A stretch of 64,000 bases of DNA from Acetobacter orientalis (GTDB lineage Bacteria; Pseudomonadota; Alphaproteobacteria; Acetobacterales; Acetobacteraceae). Positions within the stretch are counted from its first letter, which is position 1; each line of letters begins with the position of its first letter. The notes below the pieces were generated by a model. The model made no database searches and had not been told where the DNA came from. It worked only from the letters and a program-made list of their open reading frames with translations. Of the stretch, positions 32,822 to 41,828 are shown piece after piece. A program made the position numbers and the translations under genes. The stretch is taken from the NCBI RefSeq assembly GCF_000963965.1, contig NZ_BAMX01000003.1:1-64000 (forward strand), written 5' to 3'.

Positions 32822-33427
32822 TTAATATTCACCACCATATTCAGGTGCAGCGGGGCTTGCCCCCTGTGCGGGAGCGGCCCCACCTGCTGGCACTGCTTGC
32901 CCACCCTCGCCTGTGCTCTCTCCTTGCGCAGGAGCATCAGGGCCGGATGGCTGTGCTAAAACCGGAACTGCTGGCGTAGGCAGTGGCGGTGCCGCAGGGG
33001 CTACGTCATTGCCTTCACACCGCACCATGCGCACATCGTACACAGCGCTTTCAAACACACCCAAAGCAGGCTCGGCTGCTAGCATCCAGCCTTTAAACGT
33101 TGCCCCATCTGGGTGGGTATCGTGCAGTTCCAGCCACCCTGCGGCATCCGGAGATAATGTTTTGGGCCGCTGCAAGCACCGGCCCGGTGTAATATCCAAA
33201 CTCTTGTAATGCGCAGTCGTTCCAACTGGCACACTTAAAAGCTCAACATGGGCGTCTAGCCTGTCTAACACCCGCACCACAGCGGTTGCCTTACCTTGCC
33301 ATGTGTTAGCGGGGTAAATAGCCGGGGGGGCCAAAGCTTCACCCGTTGCATGGGCCATAGACACAGACAGCCCCACACAGGCCACACTCAGGCAACCCAC
33401 AACACGCTTACGTACGCCAAAGCTCAT
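32822..33427 (-). CDS. DUF2155 family secreted protein
   Basis: 201 aa. A signal peptide ends near AHA (residue 27). The DUF2155 body follows: WQGKATAVVRVLDRLDAHVELLSVPVGTTAHY, LDITPGRCLQRP, and FKGWMLAAEPALGVFESAVYDVRMVRCEG with two Cys that could pair. The last 60 residues are a low-complexity Ala/Pro/Gly tail, probably disordered. In alphaproteobacteria DUF2155 genes commonly sit next to the NDUFA12 gene, as in this cluster. Function unknown, likely periplasmic. Its ATG overlaps the stop of the small gene upstream (ATGA). Confidence 0.85.
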   Translation of the reverse strand: MSFGVRKRVVGCLSVACVGLSVSMAHATGEALAPPAIYPANTWQGKATAVVRVLDRLDAHVELLSVPVGTTAHYKSLDITPGRCLQRPKTLSPDAAGWLELHDTHPDGATFKGWMLAAEPALGVFESAVYDVRMVRCEGNDVAPAAPPLPTPAVPVLAQPSGPDAPAQGESTGEGGQAVPAGGAAPAQGASPAAPEYGGEY

Positions 33428-33680: not shown

Positions 33681-34244
33681 TTAAGGCTGGTCTGTTTTGC
33701 CCGCAGCTTCTGGTGCCGCACCATTTGCCGGTGTGGCCTCTTTATCTGCCGCATCTTTATTGGCGCGGGTTAGGGTGTCGGTTACAGAGAAAATGAATTT
33801 GCTCAACAATTGCTCAAGGCTAATCGCGCCCTGCGTCTGGTTAATGGTGCTGCCCGCTTTAAGGGTGCTGTCATCACCACCGGGGGAGAGGGCAATGTAT
33901 TTACCGCCCAGCAGGCTGTCGCTGGTAATAATAGCCGCACTATCGGTAGGCAATTTAATATCAGGCCGCACGGTAAAAGTAACTTCAGCCTTATAAGTGG
34001 CGGGGTTAACCCGCTCTTGGGTTACTTGGCCAACCGTTACCCCTGCCAGCCTTACGTCTGAGCCAACGCCCAAACCATCAATATGGCCAAAGCTGGCATG
34101 CAGGGCATAGCCTGTGCTGTCTGTTTTGCGGCCTTCACCTACAATGGCTGCCACCAACATAAGGGCAAGACCCAGCAGCACCGCAACACCGGTAATAAGT
34201 TCTGCCATATTGCGCCGGGCTGGAGCCGTGGTAACTGAAGCCAT
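33681..34244 (-). CDS. mlaD: Outer membrane lipid asymmetry protein MlaD (MCE domain)
   Basis: 187 aa from the ATG at 34244; a GTG at 34256 overlaps the likely ribosome site. A single membrane helix (ELITGVAVLLGLALMLVAAIV) is followed by one MCE domain: GYALHASFGHIDGLGVGSDVRLAGVTVGQV, VTFTVRPDIKLPTDSAAIITSDSLLGGKYIALSPGG. The C-terminal Ala/Pro tail is low complexity. MlaD forms the hexameric ring of the inner-membrane MlaFEDB complex. The ATPase and permease genes mlaF and mlaE are absent here; mlaA and mlaC lie 14 kb away. Confidence 0.88.
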   Translation of the reverse strand: MASVTTAPARRNMAELITGVAVLLGLALMLVAAIVGEGRKTDSTGYALHASFGHIDGLGVGSDVRLAGVTVGQVTQERVNPATYKAEVTFTVRPDIKLPTDSAAIITSDSLLGGKYIALSPGGDDSTLKAGSTINQTQGAISLEQLLSKFIFSVTDTLTRANKDAADKEATPANGAAPEAAGKTDQP

Positions 34245-34345
34245 AGACGTGTGCACTCCCTGAATGAACGGAGAGGTTAGCAGGTAAAGCAGCTTACCAA
34301 CACCGTGCCTCTCCCCTTTTTCTGTAGCAGGGAATGCTTTTTAGA

Positions 34346-34714
34346 TCACGCCTCTGGCACCCAAGATTCGTAATCTCCTTGCGCGGCAGGTTTACGGCCC
34401 AAGTTATAGGCACTCCCTGCTGGGCGGTAAGCTTGGGCCGTACCAGTCTGGTTTGGCACGTGGGGTACCTGCCACGGCTTGCGCTCTTCTGGCGCAATAG
34501 GGGCATCCAGCATATGGTGCAACCACCCCCACCACTCTGGTGGCACGGCTGAAGGGTCTTCGCCCTTTAGGTAGATCACCCATCGTTCTGGCCGGTCTAT
34601 CCCTCCGCCCTTGCGGGCTAGGCCGGTCGATTCGTAGTAGCAGCGCCCCTGGTCATCTTTACCAACCAGGCGCCCCTTGCGGCGCGTGTAAAGCCGTGTT
34701 CCGAGATTTGCCAT
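34346..34714 (-). CDS. NDUFA12-family NADH:ubiquinone oxidoreductase accessory subunit
   Basis: 122 aa. It matches the NDUFA12 (B17.2) family: GTRLYTRRKGRLVGKDDQGRCYYE, ERWVIYLKGEDPSAVPPEWWGWLHHMLDAPI, then the Pro-rich KPWQVPHVPNQTGT and a C-terminal PAAQGDYESWVPEA. This is one of the few supernumerary complex I subunits found in bacteria, mainly alphaproteobacteria. It has no membrane segment and probably sits on the peripheral arm. It heads the minus-strand run of mlaD, the small protein and DUF2155. Confidence 0.92.
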   Translation of the reverse strand: MANLGTRLYTRRKGRLVGKDDQGRCYYESTGLARKGGGIDRPERWVIYLKGEDPSAVPPEWWGWLHHMLDAPIAPEERKPWQVPHVPNQTGTAQAYRPAGSAYNLGRKPAAQGDYESWVPEA

Positions 34715-34895
34715 GACTCGCATAATAATGCGCGGTTTATAGCCCGGTCTATGCCTTTTAAAGGGCTACCCGATCAACTGCGCTCGAGCAGGGCAAAAGT
34801 TATCCCCCATATCCTCATTATACTAACCATTGTATCGCGTTTGGGGCTGTTTGAGCGGGTTACACTGCTCTTGGTGGCAGGAGTAAGCTTGCACC

Positions 34896-36458
34896 ATGAC
34901 AAGAGCCAGACGCCATTGGAGTGGTGTGCTCATGAGCACATTACAGGCCGCAGCAGACCCGGATGCCCCTTTGCGCTCCGTCCTGTTGCCCGCAGAGTGG
35001 GATGCCGAAGCTGCTGCCGCGCTGGCACAGCTGGTGCCCGGAACAGATGCTATTGACCTTGCTCGCGTGGCCTCACGCTGGGTAGAGGCCCTAACGCAAG
35101 ACGATGCAACGGCCCGCTCGCTCACGTGGCTTTTGCTCATGCGCCAAGCCGCCCCAACCGAGAGTGTCTGGACTTGCACGTTTGACCGGCCACCCGGCTT
35201 TATTGTTAATTTGGCAGCCTTTGTGACACCGGGTGAAGGCTTTAGCGCCGAAACCTTTGTAGCGGCCCTGCGCCTGTTAAGCTGCGTGTTGCGCGACACA
35301 GCCCAAACACGCGCCAACCAGCGCAATGGTGAGCTGCCGCTGCCCGGCCTGTTTGCCACCACAGCGGCCCCAGTCCCCACGCAGGCAGATGCCCCAGCGC
35401 AAGACGACCCCACGCAACCCGCCCTGGCAGGCACACTGTTACTGACCAACCTAGATGCCTGCCTTGCTGGTGTCGGGCTGGATTATGATAGTGAAGATGG
35501 CCGCGCCGCCGCCTGCGCCATTGCAGCCCTAACCACCCTTACCGCGCATTGCGGTTGCGGGCCGGAGTCTCTCCCCCTGCCCCCCGTACGCACAGTACTG
35601 CCGGGCTTGGGTGAAACCCTGCGCGCTGTCTGGGCAGAAGCCGCCGTTGAAACTGAAAACCCCCTTGCTTTTATAGAAACAGGGTTTTCTAACTCTGCCG
35701 CAGTTGATGGTATTTTGGGTGTTGAGGCCTGTGGTCTCGCCCCTGTATTTTCGCTTTTACGGCCCGATGGGCAGTTAGCCCAAAGCACGCTTAACCGCCT
35801 AGATGCCCGCGGCTTTACCGCAGAAACCGCACTGGCCGCAGCCCTAGCGGGCGAGAGTGTGTTGCCCCTACCCGGCGCCACGGCCCACATGGCTATGTAC
35901 CGTGCCTTAAGCGGCTTTATTGACCGCCTACCCGCCAAGCCAGACCCCGCAGACCAACCCCTCAACCAAAAGCTGGAACGCGGCATGCGCCGTGCCCTAC
36001 CGCACAGGCATGGCGGCTTTACGCAAAAAACCGCTATCGGGGGCCACCGGCTCTTTTTACGCACCGGTGAATATGAAGACGGCACATTGGGCGAACTGTG
36101 CCTAACCCCCACGCGCGAAAGTGCAATGGTAAAAGGTCTTATGGAAAGCTTTGGGGAGGCCGTAAGTATTGGCCTACAATATGGTGCCCCGCTGGAAGAA
36201 TACGTGAACAGCTTTGCGTATTCCTGCTTTGGCCCGGCTGGCACTGTAGAGGGCGACCCAGTTGCGACCTATGCCACCTCCATGCTCGACTATGCCTTCC
36301 GTGCATTGTCTGAGGCATATCTGGACAAAAAGCTGCCAGATGGCCCCCACCAAGACATGCAAGGCGAGCCTGACCCACTTCTCCCCCTTGATTTCCCCGG
36401 AGATGGAGGCGACCCTCCTCCGCGCAAGCGGGGCAGCTTACGCTTGGTTGTAAGCTAA
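34896..36458 (+). CDS. Class II ribonucleotide reductase-derived protein, probably catalytically inactive
   Basis: 520 aa; the ATG at 34932 after GGAGTGG is an alternative start. The C-terminal part, residues 371-478, closely resembles that of B12-dependent NrdJ: GGFTQKTAIGGHRLFLRTGE, YEDGTLGE, SIGLQYGAPLEEYVNSF, FGPAGTVEGD, TSMLDYAFRALSEAYL. The middle keeps the outline of the RNR barrel: NLAAFVTPGEGF at 105-116, GVGLDYDSEDGRAAACAIAAL at about 193-212, ILGVEACGLAPVFSLL at 273-288. But there is no NxCxE radical motif, and the PTGTIG loop reads AVDGILG. The N-terminal half carrying the redox cysteines and B12 contacts is missing. It is followed by ridA on the same strand. Confidence 0.72.
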   Translation: MTRARRHWSGVLMSTLQAAADPDAPLRSVLLPAEWDAEAAAALAQLVPGTDAIDLARVASRWVEALTQDDATARSLTWLLLMRQAAPTESVWTCTFDRPPGFIVNLAAFVTPGEGFSAETFVAALRLLSCVLRDTAQTRANQRNGELPLPGLFATTAAPVPTQADAPAQDDPTQPALAGTLLLTNLDACLAGVGLDYDSEDGRAAACAIAALTTLTAHCGCGPESLPLPPVRTVLPGLGETLRAVWAEAAVETENPLAFIETGFSNSAAVDGILGVEACGLAPVFSLLRPDGQLAQSTLNRLDARGFTAETALAAALAGESVLPLPGATAHMAMYRALSGFIDRLPAKPDPADQPLNQKLERGMRRALPHRHGGFTQKTAIGGHRLFLRTGEYEDGTLGELCLTPTRESAMVKGLMESFGEAVSIGLQYGAPLEEYVNSFAYSCFGPAGTVEGDPVATYATSMLDYAFRALSEAYLDKKLPDGPHQDMQGEPDPLLPLDFPGDGGDPPPRKRGSLRLVVS

Positions 36459-36507: not shown

Positions 36508-36972
36508 ATGAGCACAACACCAGAAGCCCGCCTTGCCGCCCTTGGCATTACCCTGCCCACACCTGCGGCCCCTGTTGCCAACTATGTTGCCTGCGTACAA
36601 ACCGGCTCTTTACTTATTGTGTCTGGCCAGTTGCCGCTGGCTAATGGCAAGCTGTTTGCAACCGGTAAGCTGGGCGGTGCCGTTTCTGTTGAAACAGCAG
36701 TTGAGGCAGCCCGCTACAGCATGATTAACGTTATTGCGCAGGTTAAAGCCGCTGTAGGTGACCTAAGCCGCGTTAAGCGCGTTGTGCGCCTTGGGGGTTT
36801 TATTGCCTGCACCCCAGAATTTACCGCGCATGCGTCTGTCATGAATGGGGCGTCCGACCTTGCGGTTGAGGTCTTTGGCGATGCAGGTCGCCATGCGCGC
36901 TCTACCGTTGGCGTGCCCTCACTCCCGCTTGACGCACCAGTTGAAGTCGAAGGATTGTTTGAAATCGACTAA
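36508..36972 (+). CDS. RidA family protein (YjgF/YER057c/UK114)
   Basis: 154 aa, longer than archetypal RidA (about 130) and closer to the YjgH-like or RutC-unlike subgroup with start PEARLAALGITLP. Motifs: YVACVQTGSLLIVSGQLPLANG, then VKRVVRLGGFIACTPEFTAHASVMNGASDLAVEVFGD and HARSTVGVPSLPLDAPVEVEG. In archetypal RidA an Arg in the RSTV(G/Q) stretch helps hydrolyse reactive enamines; it is present here (RSTVGV). A trimeric cytosolic protein is expected. It lies 49 bases after the RNR-like gene and 25 before the FemAB-like gene, so cotranscription is probable. Confidence 0.88.
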   Translation: MSTTPEARLAALGITLPTPAAPVANYVACVQTGSLLIVSGQLPLANGKLFATGKLGGAVSVETAVEAARYSMINVIAQVKAAVGDLSRVKRVVRLGGFIACTPEFTAHASVMNGASDLAVEVFGDAGRHARSTVGVPSLPLDAPVEVEGLFEID

Positions 36973-40724: not shown

Positions 40725-41828
40725 ATGACAATAGGACTTCTCTGGTGGCTGTGGTGCCATCGGCGACCACCTTGCCCGTGCTTTCTACCCGGCACCATGC
40801 TGGCAACAGATCAACGAGACAAAGCTGTTGAACAGTTTCAGGTTGGCGATCTTATTAAAACATATGACTGGAAAACGAATTCCTCATATTACAAACCTGT
40901 TGTGTGGGTCGGCAAGCAGCGCGCCGAGATAGACCGTAACCTGCCAGATGACCGCGCAGGCTATCCTGTGCGTATTTTGGCCAATGCGTTTTCAACCGGC
41001 CTACCTTACAAAGACATGCTGGTAACGGCAGAGCATTGCCTCTTCTTTAATGGGGGTTTTGTGCCAGTTCGTATGCTCATAAACGGTCGCTCGATTTTTT
41101 ATGACAAATCGTTCTCGGCGTACGAATACTACCATATCGAAACGCAGGAGCACTCTGTGATTGTTGCCGATGGCACATTAACAGAAAGCTACCTGAATAC
41201 CGGCAACCATGCGTCTTTCCAACAGGAAGGAAAAATCGTGAGCCTGCCAAACCAAACCAGACCCAAAACATGGGAAGACGATGCCGCAGCCCCTCTGATT
41301 GTTGACCGGGACAAGGTTGAACCCTTGCACGCCCAGTTTACAAATAAGGCGATAGAAGCTGGCATTGAAAGCAAAATTGCCGAACCGGAACTCACGCATG
41401 ACCCTGACCTGCACCTGATTACGGAATCTGGCCACGTCATTCGTAAAATACGTGAAAAAGACGGTAGTATTGTCTTTATGGTGCCACCAGACGTTTCAAC
41501 CGTTCGTCTTGTTTCTCGGGTTTCCCGGCCGGTTGATACTATCGGGCCCTATGTCGATGACCGACGCCAACTTGGTGTGCTGGTTAGCGATATTACCTTC
41601 TTTGAAGGTGGAAAAACGCGTAGCATTACAGAGCATTTAAAAAATCCAGACCTAACAGGCTGGAACCCGTCTGAACAAGACACATCACGGTGGAGCAGCG
41701 GCAATGCCGTGCTACCCCTAGGCCCGCGCCGCCCCCGCAGCATTGGTATGCTGGCCATTAAGGTGCTGACCTCTGGCCCATACCTTATTGAACAAGAGCC
41801 AGAACACGCGGCCCCTGTCCGGGCATAG
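40725..41828 (+). CDS. Hint (hedgehog/intein) domain protein, Hint_2 type
   Basis: 367 aa. The Hint domain starts at C19 in CFLPGTMLATDQRD and continues with VGDLIKTYD, VVWVGKQRAEI, PVRILANAFSTGLPYKDMLVTAEHCLFFNGGFVPVRMLINGRSI (TAEH is the Hint TxxH block), and YEYYHIETQEHSVIVADGTLTESYLNTGNHASF. Such domains catalyse N-S acyl shift and self-cleavage. Only 18 residues, Trp-rich and without a signal, precede the Cys, so there is almost nothing for it to process. About 215 residues follow, ending in a beta-rich ELTHDPDLHL ... LAIKVLTSGPYLIEQE part found in acetic acid bacterial Hint proteins. Function unknown. Confidence 0.85.
   Translation: MTIGLLWWLWCHRRPPCPCFLPGTMLATDQRDKAVEQFQVGDLIKTYDWKTNSSYYKPVVWVGKQRAEIDRNLPDDRAGYPVRILANAFSTGLPYKDMLVTAEHCLFFNGGFVPVRMLINGRSIFYDKSFSAYEYYHIETQEHSVIVADGTLTESYLNTGNHASFQQEGKIVSLPNQTRPKTWEDDAAAPLIVDRDKVEPLHAQFTNKAIEAGIESKIAEPELTHDPDLHLITESGHVIRKIREKDGSIVFMVPPDVSTVRLVSRVSRPVDTIGPYVDDRRQLGVLVSDITFFEGGKTRSITEHLKNPDLTGWNPSEQDTSRWSSGNAVLPLGPRRPRSIGMLAIKVLTSGPYLIEQEPEHAAPVRA

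Follow-up and report, generated by a model that had tools for sequence, protein, structure and literature searches.

A hollowed-out class II ribonucleotide reductase, NrdJ, in Acetobacter orientalis and the probable retention of its C-terminal domain for another function

Background

What does a gene encode that resembles a ribonucleotide reductase (RNR) only in part, and why is it kept? The question is raised by a gene of Acetobacter orientalis located at 34896-36458 (plus strand) of the first 64,000 nucleotides of contig NZ_BAMX01000003.1 (assembly GCF_000963965.1); the whole of this stretch is called the window here. The gene is an uninterrupted ATG-to-stop frame with a product of 520 amino acids (aa). 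An earlier, sequence-only reading took the product for a retained inactive derivative of the class II RNR NrdJ that could regulate the real NrdJ or act as a scaffold.

We consider it probable that the gene is nrdJ hollowed out in place, with selection keeping chiefly the C-terminal domain for a function independent of the reductase. The computations demonstrate the loss of the catalytic motifs from all remnants tested, the location of the gene in the nrdJ slot, purifying selection that is strongest on the domain, and the recurrence of such genes in several lineages.

What stayed of NrdJ and what went

Model NF005736 of NCBIfam (B12-dependent RNR, NrdJ) matches residues 362-479 of the window protein with its positions 966-1083 of 1222 (E 2.8e-43), at a score of 147.7 bits against a family cut-off of 1737. 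The sole Pfam match is TSCPD (PF12637) on residues 379-475, whose 33.1 bits exceed the gathering threshold of 22.8. The C-terminal NrdJ module recognised in the sequence-only reading is thus kept. A phmmer search for solved relatives of the protein gave none that were credible; rows of D-Ala ligase (E 0.071 and 0.12) were taken as chance matches.

We aligned 50 orthologues of the remnant (A1) and 19 intact NrdJ proteins (A2: 18 from the class-wide search described below and one from the Acetobacterales genome G282). Comparison of A1 with A2 by hhalign (probability 100, E 2.4e-65) places remnant residues ~103-487 on NrdJ ~492-1086. In an AlphaFold2 model of the window protein (mean predicted local distance difference test, pLDDT, 86.9) VIA-align pairs residues 6-363 with residues 13-920 of Rhodobacter sphaeroides NrdJ (7b9p), with Z 25.6, root-mean-square deviation 3.5 and 329 residues aligned. 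The eroded barrel suspected earlier is therefore real, and profile, structure and genomic slot agree on common descent and a common fold with class II RNR NrdJ.

Two weaker hhalign pieces are colinear with the main one: remnant 4-45 on NrdJ 11-57 (E 0.0079) and 69-92 on 132-156 (E 0.36). The structural alignment, which begins at model residue 6, fits these pieces, and the N-terminus of the remnant seems to be kept as well. With the N-terminus apparently kept, the protein would have been hollowed out internally, not truncated. It looks like NrdJ minus ~330 residues (~157-488), minus pieces between ~600 and ~960, and minus the end after ~1133. Its parts are as follows.

34896..36458, plus strand: NrdJ remnant gene ("mini-NrdJ"), 520 aa (open frame, NF005736 match, orthologues)
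34896..35033, plus strand: residues 1-46, likely leftover of the NrdJ N-terminal hairpin, W.GV.M....DPD...LPaeW (weak hhalign piece; model residue 6 on residue 13 of 7b9p)
35100..35171, plus strand: residues 69-92, likely leftover of NrdJ 132-156, ..LL..R.AP....W (hhalign piece weak alone; conserved R, AP and W columns)
35196..35945, plus strand: residues 101-350, second half of the NrdJ barrel with more internal deletions (hhalign, structure, substitution rates)
35319..35429, plus strand: residues 142-178, fast-evolving low-confidence linker within the barrel remnant (substitution rates; block pLDDT 53-65 at 141-170)
35979..36332, plus strand: residues 362-479, conserved C-terminal domain (TSCPD, or IscU-like, of class II RNR; profile matches, substitution rates)
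36369..36455, plus strand: residues 492-520, tail modelled with low confidence, bearing the family motif PLLPLD(L/F)P ... LRLV and lacking the six-cysteine tail of NrdJ (pLDDT, alignment)

In A1 the W-x-G-V start region and the PLLPLD(L/F)P...LRLV tail are present in most of the 50 orthologues.

Key residues are numbered by the intact NrdJ L093, a 1212-aa frame of G282. C199, N475, C477, E479, C488 and the PTGTI loop occur in all 19 intact proteins and in none of nine remnants checked, the window protein included. In the window protein the columns of N475, C477 and E479, which belong to the finger-loop radical cysteine motif NPC(S/G)E, are empty; the active-site cysteine columns C199 and C488 are not kept; and the PTGTI substrate loop is not kept either, being replaced in the hhalign alignment. 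We take C199 and C488 to be the active-site redox cysteine pair. The six-cysteine C-terminal array, present in 22/22 intact long NrdJs and in 5/5 intact proteins of a wider sampling, is also missing: no CxxC occurs in the last 60 residues of any of the 50 mini proteins. The earlier claim that the N-terminal catalytic half had been lost together with the radical motif and PTGTI stands for the catalytic elements, and it needs correction for the N-terminus itself, which seems to survive, if weakly by sequence.

The partly kept barrel fold (Z 25.6) could suggest an active, unrecognised RNR with different catalytic residues. This is hardly conceivable, since ~330 NrdJ residues have gone, the finger loop and the two redox cysteines of the active site among them, and the genome has a class I NrdAB.

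RNR enzymes in the window genome and in Acetobacterales

The window genome is 2.9 Mb long, with a completeness of 100. Only two of its genes match the NrdJ model: the remnant and, on contig 43, a frame of 645 aa. The latter is class I NrdA (NF006577, 1037.5 bits, cut-off 620), the only PF02867 enzyme of the genome, and it is followed by class I NrdB (NF007186, 575.9 bits, cut-off 237; PF00268). Neither the NrdJ model nor the PF02867 search detected an NrdJ of any type, and the search for a full-length nrdJ returned only the remnant and class I NrdA. With no NrdJ in this genome, the proposal that the protein regulates the real NrdJ fails here. A separate catalytic NrdJa was not found either, and the gene therefore does not qualify as an NrdJb-type split subunit. 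Catalytic pieces hidden in another frame were also considered and rejected: the NrdJ model found none genome-wide.

The long NrdJ type scores above the NF005736 cut-off in only 1 of 299 Acetobacterales genomes, G282. Some others carry a shorter NrdJ type (TIGR02504) with a TSCPD of its own: three were scanned (G112, G183, G265) and are over the cut-off, and G019 shows the same Pfam make-up. The frames in these four genomes are of 761-1069 aa. NrdA-type frames of 619-713 aa were found in every genome checked but G282, which shows no NrdA match and whose remnant occupies the nrdJ slot. The intact long NrdJ of G282 (L093, C58:46000-60000) lies ~26 kb from the remnant (L053, C58:15000-34500) on the same contig.

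The nrdJ slot

The surroundings of the remnant in the window are listed below.

32822..33427, minus strand: DUF2155 gene, of the same conserved block as NDUFA12 (PF09923; synteny)
33681..34256, minus strand: MlaD-domain gene, of the same conserved block (PF02470; synteny)
34346..34723, minus strand: NDUFA12 gene, divergently oriented to the remnant and a marker of the ancestral nrdJ slot (PF05071; synteny)
34724..34895, plus strand: intergenic stretch before the remnant, without an NrdR-box pair, unlike deeper Acetobacteraceae (box-pair scan)
36508..36972, plus strand: RidA/YjgF gene, the next same-strand gene after the remnant (PF14588, PF01042)

Of 19 loci with intact nrdJ, 17 have the NDUFA12 block divergently upstream, and in 3 RidA directly follows the intact gene. 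Around remnants outside Acetobacter (n=40, within the stretch fetched) MlaD was found 39 times, NDUFA12 33 times and RidA 32 times. The shared NDUFA12/MlaD neighbourhood implies that the remnant is nrdJ at its ancestral place.

Downstream on the plus strand the window gene is followed by RidA, a FemAB-like protein and FolD. Beyond FolD, at 40725-41828, lies a gene for a Hint-domain protein (PF13403), a homologue of which occurs near the remnant in 2 of the 40 loci outside Acetobacter (limited stretch).

Spread and selection in Acetobacterales

With a threshold of E <= 1e-5, homologues of the window protein were found in 288 of 299 Acetobacterales genomes and 61 of 65 genera, some copies being fragments at contig ends. 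Five genomes with a diverged remnant bring the count to 293/299. One of the five, in G013, sits at a contig end. A weak match in G265 falls inside its short NrdJ and is not a remnant.

The ratio of nonsynonymous to synonymous substitution rates (dN/dS, Nei-Gojobori) between the window gene and ten same-genus orthologues is 0.054-0.150 overall, with dS >1 in all ten pairs. By region, the same pairs give 0.014-0.096 for the C-terminal domain, 0.044-0.181 for the barrel remnant (with saturation in one pair) and 0.28-0.75 for the linker 142-178. Two pairs with dS <0.8 among the eleven sequences gave 0.015 and 0.127. A recent pseudogene is ruled out by the spread and the low dN/dS, and the view of the gene as a retained dead NrdJ derivative that is not in recent decay holds.

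At least four NF005736 matches, taken as a rough sign of an extra RNR, were found in 19 genomes: four of the six genomes without a remnant (G019, G073, G112, G265) and 15 of the 293 others (Fisher p 0.00016, post hoc). Since three of these four genomes belong to one genus, this is at most a hint that another TSCPD protein can stand in for the remnant. By scan, three of the six (G019, G112, G265) have a short TSCPD-bearing NrdJ, and a fourth, G073, is a candidate for one.

Gutted NrdJs in other alphaproteobacterial lineages

We searched 240 genomes of the class with A1 and separate orders with a profile of the domain (A3); frame lengths are given from stop to stop. Among the matches listed in the class search, full-length relatives of the window protein occur in its own family only; the other matches cover the C-terminal part only and lie mostly within ~1200-aa frames. 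Nine short frames were read, with some others, e.g. in G496, G369 and G315, left unread. Three of the nine (G523, G516, G396) belong to intact NrdJs that are interrupted by the end of a contig, and the remaining six are gutted NrdJs:

G514: 912 aa, RidA and FemAB-like genes downstream, no NDUFA12 in the stretch (the gene lies on two contigs, identical in the overlap)
G479: 812-aa frame, NDUFA12 adjoining
G397: 667 aa, NDUFA12 and RidA adjoining (the genome is 10% contaminated)
G306: 282 aa, MlaD, NDUFA12, RidA and FemAB-like genes adjoining
G503 and G395: 280 and 278 aa, NDUFA12 adjoining

In all, the nrdJ neighbourhood with gutted NrdJs (frames of ~270-1060 aa) was found in eight families beyond Acetobacteraceae; the proteins that were read have lost the catalytic motifs and retain the C-terminal domain.

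The domain of these proteins remains close to that of intact NrdJs, with a mean identity of 0.81 for G514, 0.80 for G479, 0.73 for G306, 0.67-0.68 for G503 and G395 and 0.46 for G397, compared with 0.83 between intact pairs. Before the domain the six have 0.13-0.31 identity to intact proteins over 15-459 alignable columns (G514 0.29 over 459, G479 0.31 over 141, G306 0.20 over only 15), compared with 0.69 between intact pairs. In G514, G397, G306, G503 and G395 the sole PF02867 enzyme, leaving aside the weak match of the remnant itself, is encoded by an NrdA-like frame of 620-659 aa; the NrdA frames of G514, G397 and G503 were scanned and exceed the class I cut-off.

Two orders were covered more densely. 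Of the 64 genomes of family f98, which belongs to the order of G503, 61 carry domain frames of 269-307 aa; in f154, the other family of that order, 43 of 48 matched genomes have frames of at least 1180 aa. The loci fetched proved to be domain-only in 9/9 cases for f98 and intact in 3/3 cases for f154. The f98 loci (L273-L281, L180, L181) come from compact genomes of 1.0-1.5 Mb with 28-30% GC, SAR11-like in size and GC only, where a free-standing ~280-aa domain is encoded beside NDUFA12. Matches were obtained in 111 of the 120 genomes of the G479 order, with 28 frames of at least 1117 aa and 83 of 344-1075 aa. All 17 short frames fetched there (families f146, f155, f156 and f63) lack NPC(S/G)E, PTGTI and CNL(A/G)S and adjoin NDUFA12; both long frames fetched are intact.

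In f98 the median dN/dS is 0.046 in the domain vs 0.47 before it; for the G479 order the corresponding medians are 0.12 and 0.67. The two higher values are rough, because the sequences preceding the domain align poorly (mean identity 24% and 44%) and only 30/55 and 115/153 pairs gave a usable dS. At a level of at least 90%, 26 domain columns are common to the intact NrdJs, both gutted sets and the mini set.

A slow lineage-by-lineage decay of a useless gene, with the C-terminal part as the last to erode, would account for the fast catalytic parts in the order of G479, for a broken copy in the Acetobacterales genome G021 and for the loss of the gene from some genomes. Nevertheless, we regard it as very improbable: domain dN/dS is 0.014-0.12, domain-only frames persist in 61/64 f98 genomes, and the remnant in 293/299 Acetobacterales genomes.

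How many times did the gutting occur? Trees of the domain were built from 126-127 columns; the second was limited to 16 of the 50 mini proteins and did not include G397. The Acetobacteraceae mini set forms one side of a branch in both (support 99/85 in the first, 100/100 in the second). The distribution of the other remnants takes four label changes on either tree; branches with good support make four of these necessary in the first and three in the second. The orders of f98 and of G479 each also have intact members. From these domain sequences, we read at least three probable guttings besides the Acetobacteraceae one.

The C-terminal domain without the reductase

Folded alone, the domain is predicted with pLDDT 94.6 and a predicted template modelling score of 0.87. 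Foldseek found no match to this model better than E 0.42, and the VIA-align results include many weak IscU/SufU rows (Z 3.5-5.2). PMC9669993 describes an IscU-like structure for class II RNR C-termini and states that no role has been reported for it. For NrdJd of S. nassauensis, PMC5704485 proposes that four C-terminal cysteines bind zinc and two (C933, C945) carry electrons, and states that oligomerisation in response to dATP and dGTP depends on the C-terminal region.

The gutted proteins differ in these cysteines. Only the four-cysteine zinc-type pattern, without the proposed redox pair, is present in G514, G479, G306 and 17 relatives of G479; G397, G503, G395 and nine f98 loci have neither the six-cysteine nor the four-cysteine pattern. 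Loss of the proposed electron-carrying pair fits a lost reductase with a retained fold. Literature searches found no paper joining TSCPD with ribonucleotide reductase, the papers on TSCPD only being, by title, not on RNR; they also gave no account of such gutted NrdJ remnants among the best-ranked matches, judged by title and start of abstract.

The domain in Acetobacteraceae is more diverged: three members that were compared with intact NrdJ are 0.51-0.66 identical to it there, and the average over 50 members is 0.55. This is below the other gutted sets except G397 and may speak for a new function specific to Acetobacteraceae, e.g. via the PLLPLDLP...RRRxLRLV tail, unrelated to the role of the domain elsewhere. 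The half-barrel and the N-terminus are conserved here too, the family-specific tail motif is conserved within a low-confidence region, and the NrdR-box pairs considered below are rare in the crown group (2/25). An interpretation of PLLPLDLP as a putative sliding-clamp motif was set aside. Even so, the retention of the same domain in several other lineages would then be a coincidence, and the 26 columns common to the intact, both gutted and mini sets would be unexpected; we find such a family-specific origin of the function rather unlikely.

NrdR boxes and a possible link to class I RNR

PMC9110341 describes NrdR boxes as palindromes spaced by about three turns of the helix. We used a pattern that was relaxed after a first scan; the split into crown and non-crown mini genes was made after seeing the results. 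With the relaxed pattern and at most nine mismatches, box-like pairs precede 21/25 non-crown and 2/25 crown mini genes, 12/24 intact nrdJ genes, 5/17 gutted genes of the G479 order and 1/9 f98 genes, and occur in 0.6% of random windows. The strict consensus with at most ten mismatches gave a smaller excess (4/25 non-crown, 1/25 crown and 8/24 intact, against a background of 0.3%). We see here a hint of dNTP (deoxyribonucleoside triphosphate) control. In the window genome, two NrdR-box-like palindromes 32 bp apart are found upstream of the class I nrdA (L094 2318-2365, G000 contig 43). A scan of ten loci, the window not among them, detected no riboswitch or known RNA over the Rfam gathering threshold.

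The box-like pairs before many remnants, together with NrdA in the gutted genomes checked, make class I RNR the first candidate partner. The remnant might belong to class I NrdAB as an accessory or allosteric subunit, binding NrdA and tuning its oligomeric state or activity in response to dATP. For this speak the need of the C-terminal region for nucleotide-induced oligomers in S. nassauensis NrdJd (PMC5704485), the box-like pairs before many remnants and before nrdA of this genome, and the NrdA-type frames in the genomes checked except G282. However, several NrdA-only genomes have no remnant, which means that NrdA does not need it, and G282 has a remnant and an intact NrdJ with no NrdA match. 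We thus hold a role as NrdAB subunit to be unlikely, and the same doubt applies to NrdA or NrdB as the partner of the remnant.

The proposed history and its weak points

The reading that we prefer, an nrdJ hollowed out in place, implies the following course of events. Class I NrdAB would have taken over the dNTP supply in the ancestry of Acetobacteraceae. The NrdJ frame would then have lost its catalytic core and stayed as a non-catalytic protein of ~500 aa, with selection keeping chiefly the IscU-like (TSCPD) domain for a function without ribonucleotide reduction. The same domain appears to have been retained through the gutting of NrdJ in further alphaproteobacterial lineages; in Acetobacteraceae the half-barrel is conserved too. 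By analogy with the NrdJd oligomers, the domain may act by protein-protein contact, and perhaps, as a more tentative suggestion, in the control of dNTP or RNR. The scaffold or regulatory role proposed in the sequence-only reading may apply, and the comparison between lineages would shift it to the C-terminal domain.

More generally, it seems likely to us that the domain is a bifunctional module whose reductase-independent role, plausibly dNTP or replication control, is kept repeatedly in the nrdJ slot as class I RNR replaces NrdJ, down to the free-standing ~280-aa f98 protein.

A number of observations weigh against the hollowing-out reading. The five diverged Acetobacterales remnants (G013, G101 and G116 of genus g12; G144 and G181 of g40) show the reverse of the pattern, with the barrel only and no match to the C-terminal domain; no remnant was found in G003 and in the g14 genomes G019, G065, G073 and G112; and the G021 copy is broken by an internal TGA. 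The window domain is only 51% identical to intact domains, the best VIA-align match of its model is to a lipoyltransferase C-terminal region (Z 6.3, no strong match), and no NrdR-box pair (~31-32 bp apart) was found upstream of the window gene. Beyond Acetobacterales, G479 has a 582-aa short class II NrdJ over the TIGR02504 cut-off in addition to a 656-aa NrdA-like frame; no domain was found in 9/120 genomes of its order; and the five NrdA-only genomes sampled from other families (G310, G312, G308, G316, G351) have neither remnant nor domain among the matches listed. In the second tree the f98 and G479-order remnants fall into one supported set with one intact row, and they are therefore possibly not separate events. 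Finally, the class and order searches rest on domain-containing profiles, so that they under-sample domain-less remnants and do not show the frequency of domain loss.

The remnants amount to a repeated natural experiment, in which the domain was split from catalysis and is the part under the strongest selection. The open question of what the IscU-like domain does thereby becomes a direct genetic test. Caulobacter crescentus has NrdJ alongside NrdE and NrdB (PMC6538847). There is also a practical consequence: RNR naming on C-terminal similarity alone would label dead proteins as B12-dependent reductases.

Comparison with known systems

Catalytically dead RNR relatives kept for another role are known from herpesviruses in the form of their RNR large subunits, which are class I derived and viral. 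The closest relative of the remnant is the long alphaproteobacterial NrdJ (NF005736; 7b9p of R. sphaeroides), with which it shares the slot, colinear homology, the barrel scaffold and the C-terminal domain. The remnant differs in its length (520 and not ~1200 aa) and in lacking the radical cysteine, the redox pair, PTGTI and the six-cysteine tail. The shorter class II RNR (TIGR02504 type; G183, G265, G112, G019) also carries TSCPD, but it is a complete reductase of another type; to judge from the slot and from the match to NF005736, the remnant does not derive from it.

Residues 362-479 correspond by homology to the folded part of the IscU-like domain with zinc finger (CRD) that PMC9669993 and PMC5704485 describe for class II RNR C-termini. 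Its predicted fold gives weak pairings with IscU/SufU (Z 3.5-5.2), the resemblance that PMC9669993 reported for such C-termini. In contrast to them, the domain survives here without a reductase. The split NrdJa/NrdJb of P. aeruginosa (PMC4520616) resembles the remnant in that the C-terminal NrdJ part is encoded apart from the catalytic chain. However, NrdJb is a partner of NrdJa and serves in disulfide exchange, whereas the remnant has neither an NrdJa nor the redox cysteines.

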